Shown: positions 1 through 22,795, counted from the first letter of the stretch. The stretch is DNA of 64,000 bases from Thioalkalivibrio sp. ALJ12 (GCF_000378305.1 NZ_KB899539.1:95854-159853); one strand, 5' to 3'. Numbers and translations: made by a program. Notes: generated from the letters alone by a model not told the origin.

Positions 1-8
1 CCCGCCGG

Positions 9-1993: not shown

Positions 1994-2922
1994 CCGGGGC
2001 TCCTGCCGTGACTGCAACCGACGTGACATGTCAGTGCGAGGGGAAGCAGCCAACCCGCCCGGCTTACTCCGTCATTGTGCCGGTCTATGATCACTGGTCG
2101 CTTGTACCCGAGCTGCTGGATTGCCTGCGAGCGCAGACCCTGCCGCAAGACGAGTTCGAAGTCATTCTGATCAACAACGGCTTGAAGGCCTTCACGGCGC
2201 CCAAAACGCTTCCCCGTAACGTTCGTATCCTGCAGTGCGACAGGCGGGGTTCCTACGCCGCCCGAAACGCCGGGGTGTCGGCAGCCGCCGGGGACTGGCT
2301 GGTATTCACGGATGCGGACTGCCGCCCGGTGCCCGAGTGGCTCGAAGCCATGAGAGACGCAAGCAGAAAAGAGCCCGGAAACGTTCTGCTGGCCGGCCCC
2401 GTCGAGATGTATGCGGACACTCTTCGGCCCAATGCCTACCAGATCTATGACCTGATTCGCGGCATCCCGCAGGAGCACTACGTGCGCCGCGGGTATGCCG
2501 CCACCGCCAACCTTCTGATTCCACGACCGGTTCTGGAGGAATTGGGTGGTTTCGACGCCACGCGATTTTCGGGTGGTGATGCTGATCTTTGCCGCCGCGC
2601 GGTTGCCCGCGGGTATCCCATCCGCTTTGTCCCCGAGGCGCTGGTGTACCACCCGGCCCGCGAGTCCTGGGAAGAAGTGGTAGCCAAGGCGCGTCGAATC
2701 AAGGGTGGACAGATCTTGTGCGGCTCGAGCACCTCACGCACGTACTGGGTGTTACGGACACTGCTTCCGCCCGTAGCCCTGTATTACCGGTATGCGCTGG
2801 CGAGCCAATACCCCGTCCGGTATCGGCTGGTCAGCCTGGCTGTTCAGTCCCGATTGTGGGGCCACGAACTGATGGAGACGCTGCGCCTGCTGATGCGCCT
2901 GTCGCGCCGTCAGCGGTCATAG
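1990..2922 (+). CDS. Family 2 glycosyltransferase (GT-A)
   Basis: 310 aa. YSVIVPVYD at about residue 27 is the GT2 nucleotide-binding start, AARNAGVSAAAGDWLVFTDAD holds the metal-binding DxD (TDAD) near 105, and GGFDATRFSGGDADLCRRA has the acceptor-side ED-like motif near 190. No transmembrane segment is obvious, so it is probably a cytoplasmic inner-face enzyme. The start ATG overlaps the previous stop as ATGA, so the two genes form an operon. It transfers a sugar from a nucleotide sugar to a growing glycan or lipid; donor and acceptor cannot be read from the sequence. Confidence 0.9.
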   Translation: MTGAPAVTATDVTCQCEGKQPTRPAYSVIVPVYDHWSLVPELLDCLRAQTLPQDEFEVILINNGLKAFTAPKTLPRNVRILQCDRRGSYAARNAGVSAAAGDWLVFTDADCRPVPEWLEAMRDASRKEPGNVLLAGPVEMYADTLRPNAYQIYDLIRGIPQEHYVRRGYAATANLLIPRPVLEELGGFDATRFSGGDADLCRRAVARGYPIRFVPEALVYHPARESWEEVVAKARRIKGGQILCGSSTSRTYWVLRTLLPPVALYYRYALASQYPVRYRLVSLAVQSRLWGHELMETLRLLMRLSRRQRS

Positions 2923-2997
2923 GGCGCTCGGCGCAGCCCCGCCGCGCCGAGTCGGTGTATAACCCAAAGTAACAACCGCAAAAGGATTCGCCACACA

Positions 2998-5700
2998 ATG
3001 CCGACAGAAGCTCATCCTTCCGGTCCAGCCGAACAAGGTGGCGGTTTCGTCTCCATCGAGAAGGCGATTCTTCTGGACGTGTGTCTCGGTGTGCCGCTGG
3101 GCTATGTCTGGTTTCGGGTTCCCGCCGCTTATGAGGCCGACGTCTCGCTGGTCAAGCCGGATACCTGTCTGTTTCGGGGTGAGCAGCTCGCGTTCATGAA
3201 AGACCGGTACGAAGCCGGTGATCCCGAGATCGGCCGGGCAGTGGACAGCCTGTGCGAAAAAGCCGACCAACTGCTGGAGCGTGGCCCCTTCTCGGTGACG
3301 AACAAGCAGGGGAGGCCCGCATCCGGCGACCCACACGACTACCACAGCCTGGCCAAATACTGGTGGCCCAACCCGGACACCCCCGATGGTCTGCCCTTCG
3401 TCCGGGAGGACGGGCGGATCAACCCGGACTGCTATTCCGACACCTACGACTTCTCCGAGCTAGAGGCATTTGCCGAGGCCGTACTCGCGCTTGCGCTGGC
3501 GGCCTTCCTGACCGGCGACCGGCGTTATGCGGACCAGGGGGCGCGCTTGCTGCGCGCATGGTGCGTGGATGAAGAAACCCGGCAGAACCCGCACTTCGAG
3601 TATGCGCAGTCTGTACCCGGCGAGAAGGATGGCGGCTGGCAGGGCATCATCGAGGCCCGGCGTCTGATCTACATCACCGAGTCGGCCCGGCTGCTGGAGG
3701 CGGCGGGTGGCCTTGCCGCGGACGACGTGCACCACATCCAGAAATGGTTTTCCGAGCTGCTGCAGTGGATGATGGAAAGCGAGTTCGGAAAGGCCGCCGC
3801 CAGCCGCAACAACAACATCGCCTTCTGGTGCGACCTGCAGCGGATGGTGTACGCCGACTTCTGTGGCAAGGACGACCTGGCGACCGGCATCGCCCGCGAT
3901 GTCTCCATCCCGCGCCTGCAGGAGCAGATGCTGGAGGACGGCAGCCTGCCCGCGGAGCTGGAGCGCGCGTACCCCCAGGACTACGTGGCATTCACGGTCA
4001 TGGCCATGGCGCTGATCAGCCGCGTGGGAGAGAAGCACGGGCTCCAGCTATGGGAACCGCAGGAGGCCGATGGCCACGGCTTTCGGGTGGCGCACGACTG
4101 GCTGCGCCGCGTGACCCGCAGCCATCACCTGCTGGAGAATCTGTGGCAGCCGGACGGCAACGCGCTGTCCGGCGCGGCGGCCGCGGACGGCGGCCAAACC
4201 ACGCCGCACTGGGACGGCGAGCAAATCGCCCGGCTGGAGGATCTGGGCGTTCAGTTGCGATCCCTGGCGCATATCGCCCAGGCGCGCGGTCAGCAACTCG
4301 CGACCGAACGCAAACGTGCGGCCGAACAGACAGACGCGACCTTTCGCGACATCCGGGAAGCGCACGTCCGCGAACGCCAGGGCTTTCAGGCTCAGCTGGA
4401 CGCGGCCACTGCCACCGGAAACCGCCATGCCGAACAGGCAGAGGCCCTTGAGCAGCAGCTCGCGGACACCCGCAAAGAGCTGGAACAGCTTCGCGCAGAG
4501 CACAAAGCCGCACTGGAGGAAACCGAAGCCTCCAAGCTGCAGGAACTGCAAGACCTCCAGGACGCGCACGAGAAGGAAAAGCGCTATCTGCGGGCCCAGA
4601 TCGAGGCCGCCAACACCATGTGGGGCCACCACGGCGAACAAGAGTCCGAGCTGAAGCACAAACTCGGGGAGCTGCGCAACGAGCTCAATGCCAGCCGCAA
4701 GGAGTGCGCCGATGCTCGCAAGGCGCTCAAAAACGCCCAGGAACGGCTGGAGGAGGCCCGCACGGAGCATCAGCAGTCCATCGAGGCGGCCGAGGCAGAC
4801 AAGCAGCGGGAGCTTCAGGAATACCGGGATGCACACGAACGGGAGAAGCACTACCTGCAGGCCCAGATCGAGGCCGCCAACACGATGTGGGAGCGCAATG
4901 CCGAGCAGGAAAACGAGCTCAAACGGCAACTCCGGGATGCGCGCAAGCAACTGACCGAGCTGCGCAGCCGCCCGCCTGCCCCGGCCGAGCCCGGCCGCCA
5001 GGAGCCGGCCGAGGCCGATAGCCTGCAACAGGAGCATGAGAGGCAGCTGCAGTACCTGCAGGCGCAGCTGGATACCGCCAACGCGATGTGGGGGTGGTAT
5101 GCCGCTCGCGCGGGCGATGCGGGCCCATCGGCCGATACTGTGGTGGCTCCGTCCACCGTCCACAATGACGCGGCCCCGGCAGGCCAGGGTGACGCGGCAG
5201 CGCCCCGGCGTGCGAAGCCGGCAAGTGCGAAGCAAGACGCCAAGCAAATCGCCAGGGCGAAAAAGGACCGCCGGGAGCGCGCACGCCACTACCTGGAAAT
5301 GGTCCGCTATGCGGAGAAACTGGAAAAGCAGTACACCGCCCTGTTAAGCAGCCGGTCCTGGCGTACGCCCGGTGCGGGCCGGGTGCTCCATCGGCGGCTC
5401 AAGGGGCTGGTCGGTGGCCGGGTGCCCGGGCACAACCAGTGGCCTTCGCGCCCCGACGCGATGAACGCGGAATACGCCCGTTTAGGGCGGGACGAGCTCG
5501 CCAGGCGGATCACCGAAGGCGATATCCAGGCCATCCGTCGCTACGCCCTGGCGCTGGAAAAAAAGATCACCGCCCTGGTGAACTCCACGAGCTGGAAGGT
5601 AATGGCGCCGGTTCGGATAGCCGGCCGGGCCTATCGTCGGGTTATCATGCGCCGGCCAGCCGACCGCACGCGGCTGCCCAAACGACCCAAACGCTTCTGA
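2998..5700 (+). CDS. Alginate-lyase-fold protein with coiled coil, probably catalytically inactive
   Basis: 900 aa. Residues about 60-400 match the PL5/AlgL alpha/alpha toroid: the DPHDY...YWWPNPDTPDG signature near 112, and the active-site region 271-330. Where its two relatives in this window read NNHG, this protein reads NNN (271-273), so the catalytic His is Asn. The later Arg (323) and Tyr (329) are kept. Residues about 413-720 form a charged coiled coil with four related units built around QAQIEAANTMW. The tail carries two copies of an ALxSSRSWR / ALVNSTSWK motif (near 783 and 862) of the kind seen as a linker in multidomain glycosyltransferases. No signal peptide is seen. It may be a glycan-binding scaffold or length gauge rather than a lyase (inference). 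Confidence 0.75.
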   Translation: MPTEAHPSGPAEQGGGFVSIEKAILLDVCLGVPLGYVWFRVPAAYEADVSLVKPDTCLFRGEQLAFMKDRYEAGDPEIGRAVDSLCEKADQLLERGPFSVTNKQGRPASGDPHDYHSLAKYWWPNPDTPDGLPFVREDGRINPDCYSDTYDFSELEAFAEAVLALALAAFLTGDRRYADQGARLLRAWCVDEETRQNPHFEYAQSVPGEKDGGWQGIIEARRLIYITESARLLEAAGGLAADDVHHIQKWFSELLQWMMESEFGKAAASRNNNIAFWCDLQRMVYADFCGKDDLATGIARDVSIPRLQEQMLEDGSLPAELERAYPQDYVAFTVMAMALISRVGEKHGLQLWEPQEADGHGFRVAHDWLRRVTRSHHLLENLWQPDGNALSGAAAADGGQTTPHWDGEQIARLEDLGVQLRSLAHIAQARGQQLATERKRAAEQTDATFRDIREAHVRERQGFQAQLDAATATGNRHAEQAEALEQQLADTRKELEQLRAEHKAALEETEASKLQELQDLQDAHEKEKRYLRAQIEAANTMWGHHGEQESELKHKLGELRNELNASRKECADARKALKNAQERLEEARTEHQQSIEAAEADKQRELQEYRDAHEREKHYLQAQIEAANTMWERNAEQENELKRQLRDARKQLTELRSRPPAPAEPGRQEPAEADSLQQEHERQLQYLQAQLDTANAMWGWYAARAGDAGPSADTVVAPSTVHNDAAPAGQGDAAAPRRAKPASAKQDAKQIARAKKDRRERARHYLEMVRYAEKLEKQYTALLSSRSWRTPGAGRVLHRRLKGLVGGRVPGHNQWPSRPDAMNAEYARLGRDELARRITEGDIQAIRRYALALEKKITALVNSTSWKVMAPVRIAGRAYRRVIMRRPADRTRLPKRPKRF

Positions 5701-5912
5701 ACTGAGCTGGATCAATAGGTCCCATTGTGCCTGGCCCCATGGTTTCCGGGGTCATGCCTCGGTACGTGCGGACTACGGGCACGCCGGGCGCCGTGGGGAG
5801 ACCGGCTTGGCACGATTTGCATACCTGGTTGCGCAAGTGTTACTGCGTGCCCGTACCCACTGATGAAAGGGTTTTTTACAGCCCCCGAACGGATTGAACG
5901 AGCAACAGAACC

Positions 5913-8900
5913 ATGGACCTGGATAGCCTTCCTGACGAACTGAAAGCCCTGTACGCCCACCGCTGCCCGGCGGATGCGGAGCGGAAAGCTGCCTACGAGG
6001 CTTCGCCACTGAGTGAAGAGGCGGACACCTTTGTGCTGTACCGCATCATCGGTAACGACCTCTACCCGCGCCATGCCAAGGGCCAGTCGCGTCAGAACGT
6101 GCGCTTCATCCTGGAAAACGAGCCCGAGCTGGCAGGCTGCGAAAAGCGCTGGGTGCTCAACCGCATCTTCGATGCCGGCGAACGCCAGGCGATTATTGAA
6201 CTGCTGGAGCAGCACGGCCAGTCGTACCTGGAGATCCCGTTCGACGCCGCGGCGTTCGCGCAGATCGGGTGGGACTACTCCGCCTATCCGGAGCCGGGCT
6301 TCCTCAGTTCCGCGGCCTTTCACAATCTGGAGCCGCTGCAGCAGGATCGAGTGCTCACCGCGGCCTACCGGAAGAAGAACCTTTACCTGATGAACAACAA
6401 CGGGGCGCGCAATGCCGCGCTGGAGGACGGGCGCGGCCGCGCCAAATGGGTGCTGCCCTGGGATGGCAACTGTTTCGTCACCCCCTCCGCCTGGGATTCC
6501 ATCCGCTCGGCCGTGCGCGCCGCGCCGTACCTGCCGTATTTCGCCGTGCCCATGCAGCGCATCACGGATAATGCCGAGCTGCTGCGGGACAACTTTAGCC
6601 CCAGTCCGGTGGAAGAGCCGCAGCTGCTGTTCCGTCGCGATGCCCGCGAACGCTTTGGCGAAAACCACCCCTACGGTCGACGCCCCAAGGTGGAACTCTT
6701 CTGGCGCCTGGGCATCCCGGGCAAATGGGATCGCTGGAAAGATGCCTCCTGGGACCAGCCGCGAGCCGAGCCTTCACCCGAGGCCGGTGCCTGGGGCGTG
6801 GCCGGCTGGGTGGCGCGCCTTGCCAGCGGAAAGGCCCATCTCGAGGCCTCTACAAACGAGAGCTTTCAGAATCGTGGTGTAGAGCGCCAGAAGGCGATTC
6901 GTGCCGCCATCAACCATGTGACGCGGCAAGTCTCCGCGCAGCCCGATCCCATCGGTCTGACCAGCTACCGTTTTGAAGCGATCGAAGCCCTGCGCGCCGA
7001 GTACCAGGAGCAGAGCGAGGCCGGCCCCCGGGCCGGGCTGTTGCAAACCCTGCTGCAGAATGCGGCGGATGCGCTGGAACGCCAGCCGGAATCGCCGGTG
7101 GACAAACCCGAGCCGGGCCCCTCCGGCGACCCGCAGGACTACTACCACCCCGCGCCCTACTGGTGGCCCAACCCGGACACGAAGGATGGCCTGCCCTACG
7201 TGCGGCGCGACGGTGAACGTGTGCCCGGTACCCGCATGTACGAGCCTGAGAGCCACCGCTACGACCGCACCCGGCTGCAGCGGCTGTTCGACGACACCAC
7301 GACCCTGGCCCTGGCCGCCTTCGTGACCGGAGACCAGCGCCACGCCACTCATGCCGTTCGCTGGCTGGAGCGCTGGTTCATCGACCCGGCCACGCGCATG
7401 AACCCGCATCTCACTTACGCGCAGGTGCGTTGGGGCCGAAACGGGAACCGCGGTGCACAGACCGGCATCATCGAGATGAAGGACCTGTATTACGCCCTGG
7501 ATGCCGTGCGCCTGTTGCACCATATCGGCGCGCTCTCCAGCGACCAACTGGAGCGCCTGCGCGCCTGGTTCCGCGACTATCTCGACTGGCTTCTCACCAG
7601 CGAGCAGGGCACAAAGGAAGCCCAGGCCCGAAACAACCACGGCACCTATTACGACCTGCAGGTGGCCGCGGTCGCCGCATTCCTGGACGAACACGATACC
7701 CTGTACGCCACGCTGGCCCGGGCCGAAGAGCGGATCCCGCTGCAGATCTCCCCGACCGGCATCCAGTACGAGGAGATGACCCGGACCATCACGGCCCATT
7801 ACTGCTGCTTCACCCTGCAGGGCTGGCTGAACCTGCTGAACCTGGCCGCCCGTTTCGACGGCAGCTTTGTTGCGCGTGCCGCCGAACCCGACCATCCCTT
7901 ACGCAAGGCCGTCGAGTGGCTGTTGGCGCACGAAGGCTTCCCGTGGCCTTATCCTCAGATCGACGAGTTCCATGATCTCCGCTTTTGGCCGTTGAAAGTT
8001 TTGGCAAAAGAACTAGGACTCGTGCTCGCCAAAATCTCGATTAACGAGCGTCCTGTGCGTGTCTCCTTCCCACCCCATGATGGGGTACAGGCCTACTGGC
8101 CGCTTTCCATTTCGTCCTTGCTAATTTCACGCCTCCCATCCACAAAGGTAAATACGCCATCGAACCACAGTGTCTTCGAAACGAAGTGCCGGAGACACAA
8201 ACAAGACGAAAGATCGGCGATACCCCTGACAATTGCGTTTCCTCACCGTGGAGCAAAGAGGGTTCTTAAACCAAGCGGTTCTACAATCTCCATGATGCTA
8301 CTAGCATCGGGCCTTCGTGCGGCTGGTATAAATGCTGTCGTCCTCTTGCACAAAGATGGAGCTTCTACCGCGGAGTGTTCTGGTGAGCTTCGTAAGACCG
8401 TTGGTCCGTGGGCAGAATACTGTAGTTCGTACGGCGTCCCTTGTTATACCGTCGATTCGCCCTATATGGGAAAGGATATGCCTTCTGATTCGGAGCAAGA
8501 GAAGAAAGTTCAAGAGTTTATCCCGGCATGGCGAAAAGCACTAAATACAATTGGGGTGGACGCCATACATACTAACGATGCCTCTATGCACTCGACTTGG
8601 GGCGTGCTTCTAGAACGATTGATGCTTCCTCACGTCTGGCATGAGCGTGGCTTATTCAAGCACAAGAGAGCTCACCTTATCCGGCAGGCTAGCGTAGTCC
8701 TCGCTATATCCGATTATGTACGTGGCCTAGCCGCAGAAGGCGAAAAAGAAAGGATCCTAGTAGTTGAGAATCCCGTCGATGTGCCGTCTGAGATCAATCC
8801 TGAAGAAGCTCACGCTCGCCTTCGGAGTGAGCTGGGACTTGAGTCAGGTGCGGTGGTTTTTGGCGCAGTCGCAAGTGCTAACCAAAGAAAGCGTTGGGAT

Positions 8901-10322
8901 CGATTTGTCGAGCTCGCTCGACGCGTTTTTCTCGAATGGTCCTCTAGTAATCTGCGCTCGCCCGTTTATTTCGTGGCAATCGGGGGTGGGTGTGCAGAGG
9001 TGGCAAGAATCCTGCAATCCGAGAATTGTGGTGGAGAAAAACCATATAACATCGTTCTGGCCGGCTATCGGTCGCCTGCATTCGAGAGCATCGCAGGACT
9101 GGATTGCCTGTTGGCACTAGCGGACGAAGAACCGCTTGGGCGAACCTTGGTCGAGGCGGGCCAGTTAGGTGTCCCAGTCTTCGCGAATAAATCTGGTGGG
9201 CATGTCCATGTTCTTGAGCCTTACGCGCCGGACTGGTTATTTTCTCTTGATGATGGCCTGGACGATTTAATTAAAAGTTGTATAAGCCTTATCCGAGATC
9301 CCAATAAATTCAAGGAAAGGGCGACGCGGGAAGAATCTTCCTTAAAGCATCGGTTTAGTCCAAGTACCCATGTAAGGAACATTTTTGATATCTACAAAGA
9401 GCGCTTGGGGAATGGAAAAGGCTCTTCTGGGTCAGTCTTTAACAATATGTTAGCGAGGAAACATACCAATGATTGCTACGGTCAACTGGTGGGCCCTCAA
9501 CCTGAGCGCGGCTTGGATGCGTTTGAGCATGGCACTGCCTTGATCGGTCGGAATGGATTCGAGGTTTTTGTTAATCCTGAGGATTCCCGGGTTGCAATGA
9601 TGAAGAGAAAGGGCGGCCTGGGGCAGAAGGCCGTTTATAGGGTGTGGGATTGGGCGGCCCGAGAGAATTTCTCGACACATTTTCTGGATGTCGGAGCAAA
9701 TTATGGGGAGATTGCGCTTGGCGTTCGTTACCCTGAGGGTGCTACGGTAAGGCTCTTCGAAGCGAATCCGGAATTGAGTGGATACTTGGAAACCTCTATC
9801 CGAAAACACCCAGATGGATTGAAGATGGCAAGATATATGGTTGCCATAGGAGATCAGGCGGGAACCGTGGAATTTGCAAAGAGTGAGCGATCGTCTGGTG
9901 TCTCTTCAGTTGTTTTTGATCGGAGCGAGGGAGAAGTAAAGGGATTTGAGGTAATTGAAGTTCCCATTGCCCGTTTGAGTGATTTGGCGCAATCATGTAT
10001 GTGGTCGGATGATAGCGCTGTCTTGAAAATTGATGTGGAAGGGGCGGAGGTGGATGTTCTAAGCGGTGCATGCGATTGGCTGGAGAGGATGGAGAACTAT
10101 CTTGCGATTATTGAGTTTAATCCGGAATGCATGAGGAAGGCGAGAGGCTCGTTGGAGAAATTTATTGGCGACATAGAGGAATTTGGAGAGTTGTTCGAAG
10201 TTTCTGGGAGTGGGCTTATTCCGTTTAGGGCCGAGAAGTTTCTGGCAGATGAGAAGAATCGGGATGTCGTTTTGGTGTCTGGGGCGGATTGGCTTGATCG
10301 TATCTCGCGCGCTCGATTATAG
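5913..10322 (+). CDS. Four-domain fusion: GT-like, alginate lyase, GT4 glycosyltransferase, FkbM methyltransferase
   Basis: 1469 aa. Residues about 30-300 are an unnamed GT-A-like domain (FVLYRIIGNDL near 36, WVLPWDGNCF with Asp184 as a possible metal ligand). Residues about 330-730 are a PL5-type lyase with NNHG at 574-577, Arg624 and HY at 629-630; the 48-residue His-to-Arg spacing fits the family. Residues about 773-1165 are a GT-B/GT4 domain with an EEPLGRTLVEAG nucleotide-sugar motif near 1070. Residues about 1195-1450 are an FkbM SAM-dependent methyltransferase (DVGANYGE near 1259, KIDVEGAE near 1374). The first 688 codons are GC-rich and the rest is markedly AT-richer, so the C-terminal half looks recombined in. 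The 775-aa paralogue at 16457 ends where the GT4 domain begins here. No stop or frameshift is present at the junctions. Confidence 0.85.
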   Translation: MDLDSLPDELKALYAHRCPADAERKAAYEASPLSEEADTFVLYRIIGNDLYPRHAKGQSRQNVRFILENEPELAGCEKRWVLNRIFDAGERQAIIELLEQHGQSYLEIPFDAAAFAQIGWDYSAYPEPGFLSSAAFHNLEPLQQDRVLTAAYRKKNLYLMNNNGARNAALEDGRGRAKWVLPWDGNCFVTPSAWDSIRSAVRAAPYLPYFAVPMQRITDNAELLRDNFSPSPVEEPQLLFRRDARERFGENHPYGRRPKVELFWRLGIPGKWDRWKDASWDQPRAEPSPEAGAWGVAGWVARLASGKAHLEASTNESFQNRGVERQKAIRAAINHVTRQVSAQPDPIGLTSYRFEAIEALRAEYQEQSEAGPRAGLLQTLLQNAADALERQPESPVDKPEPGPSGDPQDYYHPAPYWWPNPDTKDGLPYVRRDGERVPGTRMYEPESHRYDRTRLQRLFDDTTTLALAAFVTGDQRHATHAVRWLERWFIDPATRMNPHLTYAQVRWGRNGNRGAQTGIIEMKDLYYALDAVRLLHHIGALSSDQLERLRAWFRDYLDWLLTSEQGTKEAQARNNHGTYYDLQVAAVAAFLDEHDTLYATLARAEERIPLQISPTGIQYEEMTRTITAHYCCFTLQGWLNLLNLAARFDGSFVARAAEPDHPLRKAVEWLLAHEGFPWPYPQIDEFHDLRFWPLKVLAKELGLVLAKISINERPVRVSFPPHDGVQAYWPLSISSLLISRLPSTKVNTPSNHSVFETKCRRHKQDERSAIPLTIAFPHRGAKRVLKPSGSTISMMLLASGLRAAGINAVVLLHKDGASTAECSGELRKTVGPWAEYCSSYGVPCYTVDSPYMGKDMPSDSEQEKKVQEFIPAWRKALNTIGVDAIHTNDASMHSTWGVLLERLMLPHVWHERGLFKHKRAHLIRQASVVLAISDYVRGLAAEGEKERILVVENPVDVPSEINPEEAHARLRSELGLESGAVVFGAVASANQRKRWDRFVELARRVFLEWSSSNLRSPVYFVAIGGGCAEVARILQSENCGGEKPYNIVLAGYRSPAFESIAGLDCLLALADEEPLGRTLVEAGQLGVPVFANKSGGHVHVLEPYAPDWLFSLDDGLDDLIKSCISLIRDPNKFKERATREESSLKHRFSPSTHVRNIFDIYKERLGNGKGSSGSVFNNMLARKHTNDCYGQLVGPQPERGLDAFEHGTALIGRNGFEVFVNPEDSRVAMMKRKGGLGQKAVYRVWDWAARENFSTHFLDVGANYGEIALGVRYPEGATVRLFEANPELSGYLETSIRKHPDGLKMARYMVAIGDQAGTVEFAKSERSSGVSSVVFDRSEGEVKGFEVIEVPIARLSDLAQSCMWSDDSAVLKIDVEGAEVDVLSGACDWLERMENYLAIIEFNPECMRKARGSLEKFIGDIEEFGELFEVSGSGLIPFRAEKFLADEKNRDVVLVSGADWLDRISRARL

Positions 10323-10744
10323 TGGCCGTATCCTATTATTGTTGTGCATAATTGAGGAGTTACCTGTCACGTCCCGGATGATTGCATTGATGCGACGCGA
10401 CGTGCATTGTTTATAGGGGCGGGGTGATGGGAGACTTCTTGGGGAGCTAAACAGGTTCGCCTGATGGAGATCCGATTACACAAGAGCGGCACGACTACGC
10501 CGACCGTGTTAAAGGGGGCGGATTTAGTTTTCACTTGAATAGATGGGGTTCGGTGGCGCGACACGATGAAATGCAAAAAGTGTATGAGTGGTAGCGGTGC
10601 TGCAGGGGCGCAACGTTGCCTGGAGTGAAATATCTGCGTGCGAGAGTTATCGGCATAGGGGGCTGCATCAGGCGTTGGTTCAATATAGTCGGGCAGTCGC
10701 GGTTTGCCAGGGGTTGGGCATCCGATGGGGGCGTGCCGGGCGGG
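10323..10744. other. Gap with no supported gene
   Basis: About 420 bases of lower GC than the flanking GC-rich genes. An open frame from 10616 runs into the next gene but gives a basic, unremarkable 43-residue leader just before a good signal peptide, so I treat it as non-coding. No repeat or clear promoter was recognised. Confidence 0.5.
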
Positions 10745-11497
10745 ATGTATGCGGCGGTACTGTTCTTGACTGTGGGAGTCGTGAGTAGCCCTGCGGCGGC
10801 GGATAGCGAGGCGGTGCTTGAAACGCTGGATGGCCTGATGGCCGAGGTGGTCGAGCAGGGCCCGGAGGCGGAGCTGGACGGCGAGCCGGTGTTTACCGGG
10901 CGGGACCGTTTCCTGCCGGGCAAGGTGGCTCTGGGGTTTGGCTGGTTGCTGTGGGCAGACGAGGCTCCGGACGGGGAGGCGTTCGATGCGCGCCTGGGGC
11001 AGTATCGAACGCTGCTGGAGTGGACGCAGGATGAGCCGAATCGGAGCTGGGGGATCTATTACTCGCTGAGCGCGCTGAACCGGCTGCGCCAGGCAGGGCT
11101 GCTGGAGGACGCAGTGCCGGCGGAGGTGCTGAAGCAGATGCGCGCCGATCTGGACTGGCGGGGGCTCGTGGATGCGGAAACCTACGAGCTGAAGCGCTAC
11201 CCGGCGAACTATTACGGGGTGGCGTTCAGCATCGCCCGCTTGCGGGCGACACTGGGATGGGACGATCCCGAGCATTCGGATGCGTTGCTGGAACGCAAGG
11301 TGCGGCACGACACGGAACACGCCGGAGATTCGGGCTTCTCGGACGAGGCGACCGATGGCGAAGGCCGTGTCGACCGACACAGCGTGGTGTTGTCGGCCGA
11401 GATGGCGCAGCGCTTTCGCGAGACCCGAACACCCCTGGACGATTGGGTGCGGCACCGGCTGGAGCGTTCGGGCGGGTTGGTGCTTGCAGATCCCTAG
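10745..11497 (+). CDS. Secreted all-helical protein, possibly a truncated polysaccharide-degrading toroid
   Basis: 250 aa if started at the ATG that opens a signal peptide (MYAAVLFLTVG...SPAAA, cleavage predicted before DSEA). The mature part is helical and rich in Trp, Arg and Glu, with YYSLSALNRLRQAG and YPANYYGVAFSIARLRA helices reminiscent of alpha/alpha-toroid lyases or hydrolases, but no catalytic motif can be assigned. It stops abruptly after GLVLADP, shorter than such families, and may be a 3'-truncated gene. It lies between the fusion lyase and the GT29-like gene, so an export or glycan-processing role is plausible. I do not recognise a named family. Confidence 0.5.
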   Translation: MYAAVLFLTVGVVSSPAAADSEAVLETLDGLMAEVVEQGPEAELDGEPVFTGRDRFLPGKVALGFGWLLWADEAPDGEAFDARLGQYRTLLEWTQDEPNRSWGIYYSLSALNRLRQAGLLEDAVPAEVLKQMRADLDWRGLVDAETYELKRYPANYYGVAFSIARLRATLGWDDPEHSDALLERKVRHDTEHAGDSGFSDEATDGEGRVDRHSVVLSAEMAQRFRETRTPLDDWVRHRLERSGGLVLADP

Positions 11498-11559
11498 GGT
11501 ACGCGGAAACCTGTTCATGAGCTGCGTAAGCTGAACCGAGACCTGGGTGAAATGCGATT

Positions 11560-12921
11560 ATGTATAACGACGTAAAGGCGGACCTGCACGCGGCTGCGGA
11601 CTCTTTCCTACAATATCGAGAAGGAATGTCAACCTCACGCCTCTACAAAGTTTTCGCGGACCTAGTGGCAAATGAAAGGCTGTGGTTCGGTACTGGCCTT
11701 TGTCCAGGTTCTAGAACAGACGTCCCTTTTGTATCCTTTGAGCGTGCGTGTAGATCGGAGGGTTCGTGTATCGAGATCGCGGAAAAGATCATCGGCGTTC
11801 GGCATGACCATGCTGGGCGCGGCGCGGTTCTTTTTGTGTTGGCAGCGCGTGCCATTCTTGCTCACAACAAGCCGGAATTAGCGGATCATTTAATTACTCG
11901 ATGGAATGAATCGTGCGGGACGCCGCACAACGCCGATATTGACCGACTGTTCTTGCGGATCCGATGCCGTGTATGTGATTCCGAGACAGACAACATTTTC
12001 TACAAGCTATTGCAATTGAGGCCTCCAACGTTGGGCGACATTGTAGTGGAGTGGGTTTCCCACAAGTGGCGTTACGAAGGTCCCACCGAGAGTCTTTTCC
12101 AGTTTTTGTTTGACGTAATGGAGGACGAAAGGCTCCGAAACAAGCGGATGTTAGCCTTGGCTGTTGCGCTTGCTTTTCGTCTGGACTCACATTGGGGCGT
12201 TGATGCTGTGCTTTCAGCAAGTCCGGTCGCGGAATCACTGTACGATAAAGTCCTTCCCCTCGCTGCATATTTGGGCAGTCAAGGGAGAGCGACTCAAGAG
12301 ACGCGACCGTTTGCTGATTTGAGCGAATCAATCGCCCAGACGAGTACCCATATGGAACAGCTCGTTAGTGAACGGGAACGAAGTATTGCTATTGTGGGAA
12401 ACTCGGGGATAGAGCTGGGCCAAGGGAAAGGTGAGCTTGTCGATGGGCACGAAGAAGTGGTCCGTTTTAATTGTTTTAGCATGGACGGAAGATTTAAAAA
12501 AGACTATGGCGAAAAGTTCACCATCCATGCGCGCGGAGCACGTAATGAAAATGCTATGAATGCACGCAGCGAGATGGCGCGTTTAGCCGTTATTTGCTCT
12601 TACGATTTCGTTAATGTGCCGAGGGATTGGAAGCCCTTTGTTAAGCTATCCCTAACGGGCGCTAGGTTGGCCTGCCTTCCGGTAGGGTTTCATTTGCCAA
12701 TTCAAAGAAAGTTAAACGCGGATCCAAGCATGGGGTTGGCATTTAGCGCCTATCTCAAGAGTGTGAGAGGTGAATTGCGCCGAGAATCCTGTTTTGGCTT
12801 CGGGTTTGTGGATCAGATAGGCGCCGGCGCGGCCTCTGCACATTATTTTGAGGACGCCAGACCAGCGTTGACCCATCGCTGGGAAAAAGAGCAGGAACTG
12901 TTTGTCTCCATGCTCTCATAG
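11560..12921 (+). CDS. GT29 (sialyltransferase-type) glycosyltransferase with an uncharacterised N-terminal region
   Basis: 453 aa. The C-terminal half has the signatures of the GT29 family. Sialylmotif L is at about 278-303 (GNSGIELGQGKGELVDGH then VVRFN). A motif-S-like stretch is at about 389-413 (SMGLAF...CFGFGF). The VS motif HxxE is at His439/Glu442 (HRWEKE). GT29 enzymes use CMP-sialic acid or related CMP-sugars; they are common in animals and sporadic in bacteria. No CMP-sialate synthetase gene is in the window, so the donor is unproven. Residues 1-270 are mainly helical with no recognised domain and no signal peptide. The gene is much AT-richer than the first 8 kb, which suggests acquisition. 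Confidence 0.75.
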   Translation: MYNDVKADLHAAADSFLQYREGMSTSRLYKVFADLVANERLWFGTGLCPGSRTDVPFVSFERACRSEGSCIEIAEKIIGVRHDHAGRGAVLFVLAARAILAHNKPELADHLITRWNESCGTPHNADIDRLFLRIRCRVCDSETDNIFYKLLQLRPPTLGDIVVEWVSHKWRYEGPTESLFQFLFDVMEDERLRNKRMLALAVALAFRLDSHWGVDAVLSASPVAESLYDKVLPLAAYLGSQGRATQETRPFADLSESIAQTSTHMEQLVSERERSIAIVGNSGIELGQGKGELVDGHEEVVRFNCFSMDGRFKKDYGEKFTIHARGARNENAMNARSEMARLAVICSYDFVNVPRDWKPFVKLSLTGARLACLPVGFHLPIQRKLNADPSMGLAFSAYLKSVRGELRRESCFGFGFVDQIGAGAASAHYFEDARPALTHRWEKEQELFVSMLS

Positions 12922-13028
12922 GAAGGGTCTAGAGTGCGTAATGTTTTCGGTAACTTATTAACGAACGCTTCAGGTTCAGTTGCCTTTCGATACCGTCAGT
13001 ACTCGTAACTCCAGACGTTGGAGGTACC

Positions 13029-13754
13029 ATGATTGCTTCGTTTTTAAGGAATTTCGTGTTTATCAAGACCAGAAAAACAGCGGGTACTAGCGTCGAGATT
13101 GTTCTTTCGCCGTTTTGCGCGGGCGACGATATCGTGTCGCCAATGGTTCCCGAGGACGAGCTGTTGCGGGCCGAGTGGGGAGGTCTCCCCATGAATTATT
13201 GTGAGCGGGCTAGCGAAGAGCAAGCCTACCGGAATGCAATAATCGAGGGCGACATGGGGTTGGTGGGCAAGATTCATCGCGAGCAGAGAAAAAGACTCCG
13301 TGCGAACGGCTACTACGGTCATATGCCCGCCGAGAGCGTTGCTGCGAAACTTCCCGAGCTCTGGGAGAATGCGCTCACGTTTACCGTCGAACGACACCCT
13401 TATGAAAAGGTCGTTTCTAGGGCGTACTGGTGGACACGGTCAAGGAACGATGATCGGAATATTGATGATATCATAGAGGACGTTATAGCTGATCCGCGTT
13501 TAAGCGATAAATACCTGTATGCCAGGGGCGATAGAATTCTGGTAGACCGTGTCATTATGTTTGATCGCTTGTGGGAAGAAGTTTCAGAGATAATCACCGC
13601 TTTTGGAGGGTCGGTATCACAACGAAGGCCGGCGGCCAAGGGATACACGCGCAAAGATCGGAGGTCCGCAGCGGAGATTCTAAGTGACTCGCAGAAACGA
13701 AGGGTGCGGGACAGATGCGCGTTTGAATTTGAGGTCTTTGAATTCGCTAGGTGA
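13029..13754 (+). CDS. Sulfotransferase (Sulfotransfer_2-like)
   Basis: 241 aa with a clear GGAGG ribosome site six bases before the ATG. FIKTRKTAGTSVE (residues 12-24) is the PAPS 5'-phosphosulfate-binding loop in the KTAGTS form typical of carbohydrate sulfotransferases, and FTVERHPYEKVVSR near 119-132 is the 3'-phosphate-binding segment. The expected reaction is transfer of sulfate from PAPS to a sugar hydroxyl in the cytoplasm. It is followed after ten bases by a second, differently built sulfotransferase, so the two probably sulfate different positions of the same glycan. Low GC marks it as part of the imported block. Confidence 0.85.
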   Translation: MIASFLRNFVFIKTRKTAGTSVEIVLSPFCAGDDIVSPMVPEDELLRAEWGGLPMNYCERASEEQAYRNAIIEGDMGLVGKIHREQRKRLRANGYYGHMPAESVAAKLPELWENALTFTVERHPYEKVVSRAYWWTRSRNDDRNIDDIIEDVIADPRLSDKYLYARGDRILVDRVIMFDRLWEEVSEIITAFGGSVSQRRPAAKGYTRKDRRSAAEILSDSQKRRVRDRCAFEFEVFEFAR

Positions 13755-13764
13755 GGGGAATGAT

Positions 13765-15257: not shown

Positions 15258-16460
15258 ATGCACCCGTGGCAGTCCCGGACCAAGGATCGTGGGATCGTTG
15301 AACAGCCCATAGCTATCCTGCTGGATCCTGCCAAGACGAAAAGCGGGCGTTCGCGGTTCTTTTGCGATCTGGCGGGAATCCTGCGCGGGCTTGGGTATAG
15401 CGTTGGATTTGGTTATCCCGGCAGTGCCGTTCAGCGGCGTGAGTATCCGTATCCTCCAGAAGTTTTTGAGCGGACCCTGGAACGGCGCAGCACCACACCC
15501 GATGGTGGGGAGGGCTGGCTGAAGTGGGTGCCAGCCAAGTCTCATGTCATCACGCGCAGAAGCCTTTTCGCTGCGATTCATGATGCGGCCCTGGTCATCG
15601 TACCGGCGACGGTGGATGCCGAGATTGGGGCGGCAATCCGGTCCGCTCCGGAGTTCGCCGGTCGGTTGTTGTTGACCGATCACACGGGTTCGCGCTTGAC
15701 GACGGGTACTGCCGAGGGCAGGCCTCTGGAGAGCTATCGGGCCTGGATGGATCTGGCGGATGGTGTGCATACGGTGAACGACGGGCTGGCCGAGATCGCC
15801 CGGCGCTACGGTGCGCGCCGCGTATTTACTATCCCGCCTGCAATCGACAACAGGGCGTTCGTCTCCCGCTGGCGTGTTGGTTTCGAGCGACTCCTGCCCC
15901 GTCGACGCGCGATTCTGGTACCGGGTGCTCTATCGGAATCCAAGGGCTGTGTGACAATGCTTCGCGCGTTTGCGGGTGTTAGCGCGCGGTATCCGAGCTG
16001 GCGTATGGAGTTTTTCGGCGAGGGACCCGAGCGATCGACCATGGAGACGCTCATTCGTGAGTGGAAGCTGGGCGATGTTGTACGTCTTCGCGGTTTTGAT
16101 CCCGACCTTGTCACGCGCTACCGGGGTTACCCTATCGTGGCGTCGGCTACTGCGTTCGAGGCGTTTCCACTGGTTTTGACGGAAGCCATGGCGTCCGGTT
16201 GTATCGCCGTGTTTCCCGCTACGTCAGGCGGGCCGGCTGCGATTATTGGAAATGGGAACAACGGCCTGTTGGCGCAAACGGACAATGAGGCGGATGTGGC
16301 AGTGGCACTGATGGATGCGATCGAGCGATTCGAGTCGCGCTCAGGATCGTGGCGGGAGATGCAAGCACAGGCGATGAAATCTGCGCAGGTAGCCAAGCAC
16401 TCGACGGTCACCGAAGCCTGGCGTGCGCAGCTAGGCGCACTGGGGTGCGGGGCAGAATGA
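15258..16460 (+). CDS. GT4-type glycosyltransferase
   Basis: 400 aa from the ATG at 15258; an upstream GTG/ATG extension is possible, but the recognisable domain begins at PIAILLDPAKTKSG. The C-terminal GT-B Rossmann half is clear: AILVPGALSESKG near 215, FFGEGPERSTME near 250, and the EX7E signature in EAFPLVLTEAMASG near 305. The N-terminal half is shorter on conserved motifs. It is a retaining glycosyltransferase expected to act at the inner face of the membrane. The stop overlaps the next ATG as ATGA, so it is co-translated with the lyase-fusion protein that follows. Confidence 0.85.
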   Translation: MHPWQSRTKDRGIVEQPIAILLDPAKTKSGRSRFFCDLAGILRGLGYSVGFGYPGSAVQRREYPYPPEVFERTLERRSTTPDGGEGWLKWVPAKSHVITRRSLFAAIHDAALVIVPATVDAEIGAAIRSAPEFAGRLLLTDHTGSRLTTGTAEGRPLESYRAWMDLADGVHTVNDGLAEIARRYGARRVFTIPPAIDNRAFVSRWRVGFERLLPRRRAILVPGALSESKGCVTMLRAFAGVSARYPSWRMEFFGEGPERSTMETLIREWKLGDVVRLRGFDPDLVTRYRGYPIVASATAFEAFPLVLTEAMASGCIAVFPATSGGPAAIIGNGNNGLLAQTDNEADVAVALMDAIERFESRSGSWREMQAQAMKSAQVAKHSTVTEAWRAQLGALGCGAE

Positions 16461-18784
16461 ACTGGCGCAGATCCGTTTCGCGGGCCGCGATGGCGGTCCG
16501 GTTTTCGCGTGCGTGGCCGTGGGTGCGTCCGGTGTATGCGCTGATGGGGCCGTTTGTCGATCTGAGGTCGCTGGTGTTCGGGTTGCAGGCCGGTGGCGGA
16601 CCGGCGGCGTCGGCGATGCCGCGAGCGCGGGATCGGGGAGCACCGCCGCTCTGTGGCGAGCCGGCAGGGGGTGGCCGTGCGGATGCGCGGACAGGCAGCG
16701 ACTTTGTGCTGTACCGGATCGTGGGCAATGACCTCTGGCCCCGGCACCGGGTGGGGCAGTCGCGGGAGAATGTGGCCTGGATCCTGGAGCATGAGCCGGA
16801 ACTGGCCGGCTGCGAGAAGCGGTGGGTGGTCAATCGCATCGTGGATCCCGGCGAGGAGGAGGCGATCCTGCGGCTTCTGGAAGAGGCTGGGCAGCCGTAT
16901 GTGCACATCCCGTTTCGCTGGGACGAGTACCGGGTGGTGGGCTGGGACGTGTGCGGGGTGCCGCCGGAGTACACGCCGGGGACGCGGGGCTTTCGCCAGC
17001 TTTCGGAGCTTATGCAGGGGCGGGTGCTGATGCGGCTGTATCGGCACAAGAACAACTATGTGATGAACAACAACGGGGCGCGCAACGCGGCGCTGCGGGA
17101 TGGTCGCGGCCGAGCCGATTGGGTGTTGCCCTGGGACGGCAACTGCTTTGTAACGCGCGAGGCCTGGAGCGAGATCGTGGAGGGCGTGCGTGCGCGCTCG
17201 GAGCGGCCTTACCACATCGTGCCGATGGCGCGGATTACCCGAAACGAGGACCTGTTGAACGACGGCTTTCGCCCGGAGGCGCTGGAGGAGCCGCAGGTCG
17301 TCTTTCGCCGGGATGCGCAGGAGCGCTTCGACGAGGCGTTTTGCTATGGCCGCCGGCCGAAGGTCGAGCTGCTGTGGCGGCTGGGCGTGACGGGGCCGTG
17401 GGATGACTGGCCACAGGAGCCCTGGGACCTGGATTTCCCCGCGTTTGCGGCCGAGGCGGGTTGCTATACCGAGTGTGGCTGGGTGGCGCGGCTGTTCTCT
17501 GGCCGGGCGGAGCAGGAGGTTTCGAAAGGAGACGAGGCGTTCCAGAGCCGCGGACTTGCGCGGATCGAGGCCGTGGGGGCGATGCTGGAGCGTGTCGACG
17601 AGCTTGCCTTTGATGAGGGACGCGATCGGCTGGCGCTGTGCGTGTTCAACGAGGACCGGCTGAACGACGAAAGCCTGGCGCAGTCACTGCGCGAGCCGCT
17701 TCTGGCATACGCGGACGAGGCACTCGGGCGCGGGCCGTTCAGCGTGGTGGACAAGACGACACTGCCGCCCAGTGGCGATGGGCATGATTACTGGCATCCG
17801 GCGCCTTACTACTGGCCGCATCCGCTGCGTATTCCGGGCCTGCCGTATGTGATGCGGGACGGTGAACGGGTCCCGGGGACACGGTTGTACGAGCCGGAAA
17901 GTGATCGTTACGACCGCACGCGGCTGCAGCGCCTGTTCGACGATGGGCTGGTGCTGGCGATGGCGCACCACGCCACAGGAGACAAACGTTACGGCGAGCA
18001 TGCGGCCAGGCTGGTGCGGCGCTGGTTCCTGGATGCCGACACGGCGATGCATCCGCACCTGGAATATGCGCAGGTGCGGCGGGGGCACAACCGGAATCGT
18101 GGTTCCAGTTCCGGCTTGATCGAATTCAAGGATCTTTACTACTTCCTGGATGGCGTGCGCCTGCTGCTACGGGGCGGCGTGCTGGGCGAGAGTGATCGCG
18201 CGAGGCTGGAAAACTGGATGGGCCGTTATCTCGACTGGCTGCGGACCAGTCCGCAGGGACTGGACGAGCGGGCATCGCAGAACAACCATGGCACCTACTA
18301 TGACCTTCAGGTGGCCTCGATCGGGGCGTTTCTGGGGGAGTGGAAGGTCGTTCGCGAAACGCTGCGCGACAGCCGTTCGCGGATTCTGGGACAGTTCGCG
18401 CCCGATGGCAGCCTGCCCAAGGAGTTGGCGCGTACCACTTCGGCCCATTACGAGTGTTTTACGATCCAGGGCTGGATTCATCTGGCGCGGCTGGCCGAGT
18501 CCATTGGCGAGGATCTCTGGTCCTTCGAGGGGCCGGAAGGGCAGGGGCTGCGTCGAGGCATGGAGTGGCTGCTCGCGCACATGGGGAAGCCGTGGCCGTA
18601 TCAGCAGATTGATGCGTTCGACGAGGCGCGCTTCCACCCGATTCTGTTCGCCTATCAGGAGAAGTACGGTGATCCACCGGTTGAGCTCGACGAGCTGCCA
18701 GCGCCCGGTGCGATTAAACCCGTGTTCTTCCCGCACGACGGGATCCCGCCATTCTGGCAGTACACGCTCAGATCAGACTCGTAA
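16457..18784 (+). CDS. GT-like domain fused to a PL5-type alginate lyase domain
   Basis: 775 aa. Residues 1-75 are a leader with RPVYALMGPFVDLRSLVFG, probably membrane-associated. Residues about 78-375 are the unnamed GT-A-like domain (FVLYRIVGNDLWPRH near 79, WVLPWDGNCF with Asp227). Residues about 430-770 are the lyase toroid (DYWHPAPYYWPHP near 440, NNHG at 609-612, Arg659, His664, Tyr665), with the family's catalytic set intact. The protein is closely similar to the first 730 residues of the 1469-aa protein but ends just after FFPHDGIPPFW. A biosynthetic and a degradative domain in one chain suggests editing or release of the glycan while it is made (inference). No secretion signal is evident, unlike classical periplasmic AlgL. 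Confidence 0.8.
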   Translation: MNWRRSVSRAAMAVRFSRAWPWVRPVYALMGPFVDLRSLVFGLQAGGGPAASAMPRARDRGAPPLCGEPAGGGRADARTGSDFVLYRIVGNDLWPRHRVGQSRENVAWILEHEPELAGCEKRWVVNRIVDPGEEEAILRLLEEAGQPYVHIPFRWDEYRVVGWDVCGVPPEYTPGTRGFRQLSELMQGRVLMRLYRHKNNYVMNNNGARNAALRDGRGRADWVLPWDGNCFVTREAWSEIVEGVRARSERPYHIVPMARITRNEDLLNDGFRPEALEEPQVVFRRDAQERFDEAFCYGRRPKVELLWRLGVTGPWDDWPQEPWDLDFPAFAAEAGCYTECGWVARLFSGRAEQEVSKGDEAFQSRGLARIEAVGAMLERVDELAFDEGRDRLALCVFNEDRLNDESLAQSLREPLLAYADEALGRGPFSVVDKTTLPPSGDGHDYWHPAPYYWPHPLRIPGLPYVMRDGERVPGTRLYEPESDRYDRTRLQRLFDDGLVLAMAHHATGDKRYGEHAARLVRRWFLDADTAMHPHLEYAQVRRGHNRNRGSSSGLIEFKDLYYFLDGVRLLLRGGVLGESDRARLENWMGRYLDWLRTSPQGLDERASQNNHGTYYDLQVASIGAFLGEWKVVRETLRDSRSRILGQFAPDGSLPKELARTTSAHYECFTIQGWIHLARLAESIGEDLWSFEGPEGQGLRRGMEWLLAHMGKPWPYQQIDAFDEARFHPILFAYQEKYGDPPVELDELPAPGAIKPVFFPHDGIPPFWQYTLRSDS

Positions 18785-19990: not shown

Positions 19991-21802
19991 ATGAACACTT
20001 GGCGCAAAACGCTGGCGCTGCTCACCCCGAAGGAAAAACGCCGTGGTGGGCTTGTCCTGGGAATGGTGATCGTGATGGCCGTTCTCGAGACGGTCGGTGT
20101 CGCTTCGGTTATGCCGTTTCTGAGCGTGTTGGGCAACCCCGACGTGGTGCAGACCAATCCTGTGCTCAACACGGCCTACGAAGGCCTTGGCTTCACCTCG
20201 GTGGACGCCTTCATCCTGACGCTTGGCGCGGTGGCCTTCGGGCTCATTCTGTTTTCCGCTTTCTTCCGCTCGCTCACGCACTACGCGATGAATCGCTTCA
20301 TCGAGATGCGCCGCCACAGCATCGGCAAGCGGCTGCTGGAGACCTACCTGCGCCAGCCTTATGCCTTCTTCCTCGACCGCCACAGCGGCGACATGGCCAA
20401 GAACATCCTCTCCGAGGTTGACCAGCTCGTGCAGAACGTCTTCCGCCCCGGCATGCAGATGGTTGCCTACGGTGTGGTGGTGATCGCGCTGGTGATTCTG
20501 CTGATCGTCGTGGACCCGTGGCTGGCACTGGGCGTGGCGGTAGTGATTGGTGGCATGTATGCGCTGATCTTCGGCACTGTACGGGGCGTTCTCGGCCGCG
20601 TGGGGCGTGACCGCGCTCGTGCCAACCAGGAGCGCTTCACCGCCGCCAGCGAGGCCCTGGGCGGTATCAAGGACATCAAGCTGTTGGGCCGCGAACACGC
20701 CTACCTTTCCCGGTTCGACGGCCCCTCGGCCCGCCAGGCCCGCCACCAGGCCACCAACCAGACACTCGGCGAAATCCCCAAGTTCATCATCGAGGCGATC
20801 GGTTTTGGCGGTGTGATCGCACTTACGCTGGTCCTGCTGGCCACCCAGGGCGGAACTGGCAGCAACGCCCTGGGCGACATCCTGCCCATTCTTGGCCTCT
20901 ACGCATTTGCGGGCTATCGCCTGCTGCCAGCGGCCCAGCGCATCTATGCCGGCATGGCAAAACTGCGCTTTGGTGGGGCTGCGGTCGACAACGCCTACTA
21001 CGATCTGCATCAGCGCGCGGCGTTGGCCGAATTGTACAAACGCGCGCCTCAACCGTTAGTACCCAGGCGGAACATCACGCTGCAGAAGGTCCACTACACC
21101 TACCCGAACGCCGAACGCGCGGCCCTGCATGGGATCAACCTGGAAATCCCCGTGGGCAGCTCCGTGGGCATCGTCGGCGCCTCCGGCGCAGGCAAGACGA
21201 CGCTGGTCGACGTGCTACTCGGCCTGCTGCGCCCCACCGAAGGCGCCATCGTGGTGGACGGCAAGCCGATCACCGACGACAACCTGCGCGCCTGGCAACA
21301 GGCGCTTGGTTATGTGCCGCAGGACATCTTCCTGACCGACTCGACCGTGGCCGAAAACATCGCCCTGGGCGTGCCGCCCGAGCAGATCGATCACGAGCAG
21401 GTGGAACGCTGCGCCCGCATGGCCCAGGTGCACGACTTCATCGTCCAGGATATGCCGCAGGGCTACGAAACCCTAGTGGGTGAGCGCGGCGTCCGCTTGT
21501 CGGGCGGGCAGCGCCAGCGGATCGGCATTGCCCGGGCGCTCTACCATGATCCACCCGTACTCGTGTTCGACGAGGCCACCAGCGCACTGGACCACGAGAC
21601 GGAAACTGCAGTCATGGAGGCCGTTGCCGTGCTGTCCAGCACCAAGACGATCATCATGATCGCCCATCGGCTGGGCACTGTCTCGCGATGCGATTCCATC
21701 GTGAAATTGCAGCAGGGTGCGGTGCAGTCATGTGAAGCACCCGTCACTGCGCCACCGGATGGTCAGGTCGTGGACAAAGACACCACCAAGCGAGCCCCGT
21801 GA
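19991..21802 (+). CDS. ABC exporter, MsbA/PglK-like (membrane domain fused to ATPase)
   Basis: 603 aa. Six transmembrane helices occupy about residues 20-310; the ATPase follows with Walker A GASGAGKTT near 396, Q-loop YVPQD near 440, signature LSGGQRQR near 503 and Walker B VLVFDEATSALD near 520, and an H-loop AHR near 556. A half-transporter of this type works as a homodimer and flips lipid-linked oligosaccharides across the inner membrane. Its position in the glycan locus, beside UDP-sugar and transferase genes, fits that role. Part of its 3' end is duplicated at 24795. Transcription must pass, or start within, the repeat array just upstream. Confidence 0.92.
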   Translation: MNTWRKTLALLTPKEKRRGGLVLGMVIVMAVLETVGVASVMPFLSVLGNPDVVQTNPVLNTAYEGLGFTSVDAFILTLGAVAFGLILFSAFFRSLTHYAMNRFIEMRRHSIGKRLLETYLRQPYAFFLDRHSGDMAKNILSEVDQLVQNVFRPGMQMVAYGVVVIALVILLIVVDPWLALGVAVVIGGMYALIFGTVRGVLGRVGRDRARANQERFTAASEALGGIKDIKLLGREHAYLSRFDGPSARQARHQATNQTLGEIPKFIIEAIGFGGVIALTLVLLATQGGTGSNALGDILPILGLYAFAGYRLLPAAQRIYAGMAKLRFGGAAVDNAYYDLHQRAALAELYKRAPQPLVPRRNITLQKVHYTYPNAERAALHGINLEIPVGSSVGIVGASGAGKTTLVDVLLGLLRPTEGAIVVDGKPITDDNLRAWQQALGYVPQDIFLTDSTVAENIALGVPPEQIDHEQVERCARMAQVHDFIVQDMPQGYETLVGERGVRLSGGQRQRIGIARALYHDPPVLVFDEATSALDHETETAVMEAVAVLSSTKTIIMIAHRLGTVSRCDSIVKLQQGAVQSCEAPVTAPPDGQVVDKDTTKRAP

Positions 21803-21832: not shown

Positions 21833-22795
21833 ATGCAATACAGCCTTCGAAAGAAAGTCCTGGTCACGGGTGGCGCCGGGTTTCTGGGGTCCCGCTTGTG
21901 CGAGCGACTCTTGCAGGAGGGGCACGAAGTGTTGTGCGTGGATAACTTCTTTACAGGCTCCCGCGACAATATTCGAGATCTTGTTCCCAACCCGCTATTC
22001 GAAGTGGTGCGGCACGATATTACGCAGCCCCTGTATGTCGAGGCGGACGAGATCTACAACCTGGCATGCCCGGCTTCACCCGTGCATTATCAGTTTGACC
22101 CCGTTCAGACGACCAAGGTGTGCGTGCATGGTGCGATCAACATGCTGGGTCTGGCCAAGAGGACCGGTGCCCGGATCCTCCAGGCATCGACCAGCGAGGT
22201 GTACGGCGACCCGGAAGTGCACCCCCAGAAGGAAGACTACTGGGGCCGCGTGAACCCCATTGGCCCGCGCGCCTGCTACGACGAAGCCAAGCGCTGTTCC
22301 GAAACCCTGTTCTTTGACTATCGGCGCCAGCATGCGATGCCGATCAAGGTGGCTCGCATCTTCAATACCTACGGGCCAAGGATGCAGCCGCGCGATGGTC
22401 GAGTCATTTCCAATTTCGTCGTTCAGGCGCTGCAGGGCGAGCCCATCACGATCTACGGCAGCGGTGATCAGACGCGCTCATTCTGTTTTGTCGATGACAT
22501 GGTCCAGGGCCTGATGGACCTGATGAAAACGGACGACGGCTTTACCGGCCCAATCAATCTGGGCAACCCGCAGGAAGTGTCAGTACTCGATCTGGCACGC
22601 CAGATTATCCGACAGACGGGCTCGAACTCACCGCTGGTCCACGAAGACCCGCCAGAGGATGATCCGCGGCAACGCCGGCCCGACATTTCCCTGGCGAGGG
22701 ACGAACTCGGGTGGCAGCCTACCGTTCCACTCGAGGCGGGCCTGGAGCAGACGATCTCATGGTTCCACGACCTGCGCGCGCGAGGGTTGGCTTGA
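21833..22795 (+). CDS. uxs: UDP-glucuronate decarboxylase (UDP-xylose synthase)
   Basis: 320 aa extended short-chain dehydrogenase. The NAD site GGAGFLGS is at residues 14-21; [25 protein letters not shown] and the later [17 protein letters not shown] are diagnostic of the UXS family; the catalytic YxxxK is YDEAK in [10 protein letters not shown] near 148. It oxidises UDP-glucuronate, decarboxylates it and reduces the product to UDP-xylose. The GT61 gene that follows is a candidate user of UDP-xylose. No UDP-glucose dehydrogenase is in the window, so UDP-glucuronate must come from elsewhere. A broken copy of the first third lies 3111 bases downstream. Confidence 0.92.

Follow-up and report, generated by a model that had tools for sequence, protein, structure and literature searches.

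A four-domain fusion gene of Thioalkalivibrio sp. ALJ12 links a predicted GT-A/PL38-like lyase core to a C-terminal module on a putatively exchanged DNA cassette

We describe a gene of Thioalkalivibrio sp. ALJ12 that occupies positions 5,913 to 10,322 of a 64,000-nucleotide stretch of its genome (NZ_KB899539.1:95854-159853, hereafter the window) and encodes, in one chain, a predicted GT-A-fold glycosyltransferase domain, a domain resembling polysaccharide lyases of family PL38, a GT4 glycosyltransferase domain and an FkbM methyltransferase domain. The fusion of the four domains in a single chain is confirmed. We conclude, with a probability of about 0.68, that the product is a soluble cytosolic multi-enzyme protein of surface-polysaccharide assembly, in which a constant GT-A/PL38-like core is combined with a strain-specific decorating C-terminal module gained by recombination. 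The observations behind this conclusion are the open frame, the domains with the catalytic residues that they conserve, the crossover and the variety of tails that relatives carry.

The open reading frame (ORF) runs uninterrupted on the plus strand from ATG to TAG over 1469 codons without internal stop, the surrounding sequence contains no N bases, and the contig that carries it is 617 kb long in a genome of 2.78 Mb. After the lyase, about 785 codons remain open and include two domain matches with intact motifs, which is far beyond chance. Neither a signal peptide nor a membrane span is apparent in the hydropathy of the 1469-residue chain, which is therefore probably cytosolic. A preliminary description of this DNA had placed four domains in one open frame and called the first of them glycosyltransferase-like; the ORF, the Pfam and NCBIfam matches and an AlphaFold model bear out both statements. 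The gene and its domains are as follows:

5913..10322, plus strand: fused gene, GT-A / PL38-like lyase / GT4 / FkbM (ORF list, Pfam, NCBIfam)
6021..6902, plus strand: GT-A-fold glycosyltransferase domain, residues ~37-330 (AlphaFold model, structural match, invariant NNGARN and PWDGN)
6948..8123, plus strand: PL38-like polysaccharide lyase domain, residues ~346-737 (PF05426, profile E, structural Z, invariant residues)
8220..9407, plus strand: GT4 glycosyltransferase, residues ~770-1165 (PF13439, PF00534, E-x7-E motif EPLGRTLVE)
9420..10319, plus strand: FkbM methyltransferase region, residues ~1170-1469, core 1257-1401 (TIGR01444, PF05050, motifs)

For residues 1-365, neither NCBIfam nor, even at E 10, Pfam gives a match. 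The AlphaFold model of the N-terminal domain, built on an alignment of 19 relatives, is confident (mean local confidence, pLDDT, 87.5; predicted template-modelling score, pTM, 0.85), and on this model the domain is predicted to be a glycosyltransferase of the GT-A fold. Its best structural match is the chondroitin polymerase K4CP of E. coli K4 (2z87; Z 15.0 over 199 residues at 3.3 Å), and its structural neighbours comprise 361 chains at Z >= 8, among which the matches listed are GT-A glycosyltransferases, many of them glycosaminoglycan (GAG) or teichoic-acid enzymes. The motifs NNGARN and PWDGN are invariant among the GT-A domains of the relatives; D184-G185-N186, likewise invariant, lies at the strand end where a DxD motif is expected, with N in its third position.

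The second domain matches PF05426 (residues 397-672, E 7e-69), and its sequence and fold place it, as a predicted lyase, with PL38 and not with PL5, the AlgL-type family to which the preliminary description had wrongly assigned it. A profile of 19 rows finds the Bacteroides ovatus alginate lyase 3nfv at E 7e-97 and BoPL38 (8bdq) at E 6e-79, as against E 3e-6 for A1-III and E 0.003 for AlgL of PL5; a single-sequence phmmer search of the lyase domain against PL38 gives E 7e-40. Structural comparison points the same way, with Z 36-39.5 over ~370 residues to 3nnb and BoPL38, as against Z 20-23 for PL5 structures, and these differences rule out the PL5 assignment. On BoPL38 the domain superposes as an (alpha/alpha) barrel (Z 36.3, 370 residues, 3.2-3.3 Å). 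The BoPL38 residues mutated in Protein Data Bank entries (Y91, D108, Q173, N242, H297 and Y298) correspond in the phmmer alignment to Y416, D433, Q504, N575, H629 and Y630 of the fused chain, all six of which are invariant in 17 relatives; the conserved residues listed for the domain also include H576 and R624, and H722, D723, G724 and W729 in its tail are invariant in the family. The 740-residue core of GT-A domain and lyase is modelled as one confidently packed unit (pLDDT 85, pTM 0.85). The PL38 enzymes characterised so far cleave glucuronan, alginate, or hyaluronan (HA) and chondroitin sulfate (CS) (PMC9029943, PMC13027841; further background in PMC12088678).

The assignments in the C-terminal half rest on profiles and motifs. 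Residues 789-1136 match GT4/GT1 families above cut-off (PF13439 and PF00534, E 1e-7 and 3e-8), with the E-x7-E motif intact as EPLGRTLVE. Residues 1257-1401 match FkbM (TIGR01444, E 4e-20, 72.6 bits against a cut-off of 37.7; also PF05050), with FLDVGANYGE (containing DVGANYG, SAM-binding, that is S-adenosylmethionine-binding), LFEANPE and LKIDVEGAE intact. A search of 398 genomes of the phylum yielded no donor of the GT4-FkbM tail and no other copy of it, the best hit being 30% identical in the GT4 part only, and no whole tail was found among 72,556 plasmids, where separate GT4 genes ~28% identical stand beside sulfotransferase genes.

Comparison with the closest named relative, Thioalkalivibrio sp. 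ALJ16, indicates that the GT4-FkbM half lies on an exchanged DNA cassette swapped in by recombination. The fused-gene core is 89% identical in protein between the two strains, and blastn aligns window positions 5-7970 at 95.3% nucleotide identity until the match ends inside the fused gene at codon 686, to resume at window positions 10738 (90%) and 16451 (96%). A likelihood change point falls at nucleotide 7970, where the within-gene mismatch rises from 7.6% to 56% (log-likelihood difference, dLL, 103), and G+C content at third codon positions (G+C3) is 0.82 up to codon 678 (range 672-694) and 0.49 beyond it (dLL 88, compared with at most 8.7 in 2000 shuffles). In ALJ16 the frame continues beyond this point and enters another domain, which is GT2-like and likewise on low-G+C DNA; its Pfam match is weak (E 0.17), the assignment resting also on a DADD motif. 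The exchanged segment is delimited as follows:

7970..7971, no strand: left boundary of exchanged cassette, codon 686, inside the lyase 3' end (blastn, mismatch and G+C3 change points)
7971..10737, plus strand: low-G+C segment with lyase tail, GT4 and FkbM, in place of which ALJ16 has unrelated DNA (L004:12800-15951; blastn collinearity)

The break falls 50 codons before the end of lyase homology, and the conserved tail residues continue in frame across it, so the imported DNA would also carry the last 50 residues of the lyase, including H722, D723, G724 and W729. A break inside the lyase with a homologous tail beyond it is expected of recombination within homologous lyase sequence and argues against an assembly join. 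The core is under purifying selection relative to ALJ16, with ratios of nonsynonymous to synonymous substitution rates (dN/dS) of 0.19 for the GT-A domain and 0.09 for the lyase. In the core tree the two Thioalkalivibrio genes are sisters with different tails, adjacent to a Verrucomicrobiota sequence of 72% identity, and because of this neighbour the core itself appears to move between phyla. The exchanged cassette of ALJ16 also has a gene of 536 amino acids (L004:13971-15581) whose product, by a sequence motif and a weak NCBIfam match (E 0.005), appears related to asparagine synthase.

When 84,980 species genomes were scanned, the pair of GT-A domain and lyase turned up at 18 loci, spanning Gammaproteobacteria, Alphaproteobacteria, Verrucomicrobiota and Deinococcota among other groups; many of the source organisms come from soda lakes or saline habitats, the habitat being read partly from isolate names. 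The pair is a rare one: it occurs in 2 of the 369 genomes that represent the class and in 4 of the 296 that represent the family to which the Rhodobacteraceae locus L015 belongs, and the Salinicola family holds ~10 full copies among 250 genomes. Most copies end after the lyase at 750-790 amino acids. So does a paralogue in the window, as had been described before:

16457..18784, plus strand: paralogue of 775 amino acids, GT-A and PL38-like lyase only (PF05426), 51% identical to residues 40-735 of the fused chain

Apart from the GT2-like tail of ALJ16 (L004), the extended members carry diverse tails: PF11316 (L006, L020), GT2 (L010, L011, L015), GT2 and GT_PLOD in a disrupted frame (L008), or, in Opitutales (L005), a GT2-like domain and a methyltransferase-like end, the latter called from sequence motifs only. 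A two-domain gene of Glycocaulis is followed, after 8 bp, by a separate GT4 gene with weak similarity to the GT4 of the window. Two members are unusual in their core: that of L006:1007-4255 looks mosaic relative to the window (~50% identity over residues 1-240, ~85% over 241-640, low again after), and a protein from a metagenome-assembled genome of Bacteroidales (L019:390-3209) has the reverse order, lyase then GT-A domain. A phage origin of the core was considered and rejected, with only two weak lyase matches. A text search of open-access papers for a described fusion of a glycosyltransferase with a lyase turned up none.

For the protein as a whole, we infer a cytosolic location, an activity of each domain, a substrate and an order of reactions as follows: 1) the GAG-synthase-like GT-A core would extend a uronate-containing chain, 2) the PL38-like lyase would edit, trim or release the chain by beta-elimination, and 3) the GT4 and FkbM module would add and O-methylate a strain-specific sugar. 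Recombination would have exchanged the gene's 3' part through a crossover within the final 50 lyase codons, with a cassette that reaches the next gene, and ALJ16 would hold another glycosyltransferase at the same place. A bolder version, which we offer tentatively, treats the synthase-lyase core as a fixed platform on which recombination swaps tails, so that the type of surface glycan switches within a single gene while the lyase edits the nascent uronate chain; the exchange suggests that, by swapping the last part of a single gene, a bacterium could alter the sugars on its surface. Several points weigh against our interpretation: a cytosolic lyase placed beside glycosyltransferases could, unless it is held in check, break down what the protein makes, the GT-A domain carries DGN whereas most relatives have DxD, the GT4-FkbM tail was found in no retrieved relative, and the tail generally evolves faster than the core, although this difference in rate leaves the sharp nucleotide break unexplained.

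A sharp change of composition and identity within a frame could also mark an assembly join or a recent pseudogene, with the second half outside any working protein. The preliminary description had itself allowed for a join, or for relatives that are always separate genes. Such an origin is very unlikely here: the invariant tail residues follow in frame after a break placed 50 codons before the lyase ends, the contig is long and free of N, the GT4 and FkbM motifs are intact, and the ALJ16 gene is itself fused in frame, at this very boundary, to a different domain. On the frame, the lyase-tail homology and the sister strain we reject an assembly join.

Other explanations concern what the domains do. 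In one, the lyase-fold domain acts in synthesis as a uronyl C5-epimerase or a chain-binding scaffold and not as a depolymerase; dermatan sulfate epimerase 1 has the same fold (Z 20.3), an epimerase inside a synthase would be less self-destructive, and the cluster holds three such domains. We find this doubtful, since the domain resembles PL38 lyases much more closely (Z 36-39.5), a family in which every characterised member is a lyase (PMC13027841), and since it keeps every residue mutated in BoPL38. In another, which takes up an idea of the preliminary description, chain length is controlled: the transferases would lengthen the chain, the lyase would shorten it, and methylation of the non-reducing end by FkbM would halt its growth, the role thought to be played by methylation in WsaE and WbdD. 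WsaE of Geobacillus stearothermophilus, which joins a methyltransferase to two rhamnosyltransferases and to which chain termination by 2-O-methylation is ascribed, resembles the fused chain in having two glycosyltransferases and a methyltransferase together (PMC2943079), and the Opitutales protein, with its methyltransferase-like end, is a further parallel. Against this, FkbM and GT4 are missing from the ALJ16 gene and from all other relatives retrieved, because of which methyl capping cannot, on this comparison, be a core or conserved function of the architecture, and many relatives end after the lyase. FkbM enzymes, moreover, methylate internal sugars as well. Chain-length control by capping is in our estimation improbable.

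The favoured assignment to surface-polysaccharide assembly also draws on the surrounding gene cluster, which includes the following:

2998..5700, plus strand: third PL38-like lyase domain, then coiled-coil repeats (PF05426 E 9e-62; 96% conserved in ALJ16)
19991..21802, plus strand: ABC exporter/flippase of the cluster (PF00664, PF00005)
21833..22795, plus strand: NAD-dependent epimerase/dehydratase (Pfam PF16363, PF01370)

From its sequence and general knowledge, we take the last of these to resemble a UDP-glucuronate decarboxylase (UXS-like), pointing to metabolism of UDP-glucuronic acid (UDP-GlcA) and UDP-xylose (UDP-Xyl). Because the cluster combines this enzyme and the exporter with a sulfotransferase at 25351 and several further glycosyltransferases, it supports a uronate- or xylose-containing glycan, which is probably sulfated.

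Downstream of the fused gene, 10738-11497 and 15025-15202 are remnants of a gene intact in ALJ16 (660 amino acids, L004:15796-17778), whose middle is interrupted by ~3.3-3.5 kb of mostly low-G+C DNA (~11494-15024), a second cassette insertion. This cassette bears two genes with sulfotransferase-like starts and a GT29-like gene, 11560-12921, a bacterial protein matching GT29 (sialyltransferase) at E 1e-10 over residues 251-327. An array at 19414-19944 repeats a 171-bp unit 3.1 times, the copies being 93% alike, and related copies lie at 32.7, 33.6, 48.4 and 48.6 kb of the window and in ALJ16.

Synthesis and degradation of uronate polymers normally reside in separate proteins and separate compartments. 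In the family described here, a GAG-synthase-like transferase and a lyase share a single, probably cytosolic, chain whose tail changes between close strains, which makes testable both the role of a lyase within a glycan synthase and the diversification of surface glycans by domain swaps within one gene. The family also offers modular enzymes from halophiles for making uronate glycans.

Each part of the fused chain has a known counterpart. The lyase domain is like the PL38 lyases BoPL38 (8bdq), BACOVA_01668 (3nnb), CUL-I and TpPL38A in sequence profile, fold and the six residues; those enzymes act in degradation, whereas here the domain sits between glycosyltransferases in a biosynthetic cluster and lacks a signal peptide. 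In alginate operons, AlgL of PL5 is likewise a uronate lyase encoded inside a polysaccharide synthesis cluster, with a distantly related fold, but AlgL is a separate periplasmic enzyme, whereas the present domain is PL38-like and fused. K4CP and related GT2 GAG synthases have the GT-A fold in common with the N-terminal domain (best match, Z 15), which differs from K4CP in being one GT-A domain and not two, in its ~12% identity, in carrying DGN in place of DxD and in its attached lyase. The nearest described multi-enzyme is WsaE, likewise one soluble chain with two glycosyltransferases and a sugar O-methyltransferase; it has no lyase, its domain families and their order are different, and its methyltransferase is N-terminal.

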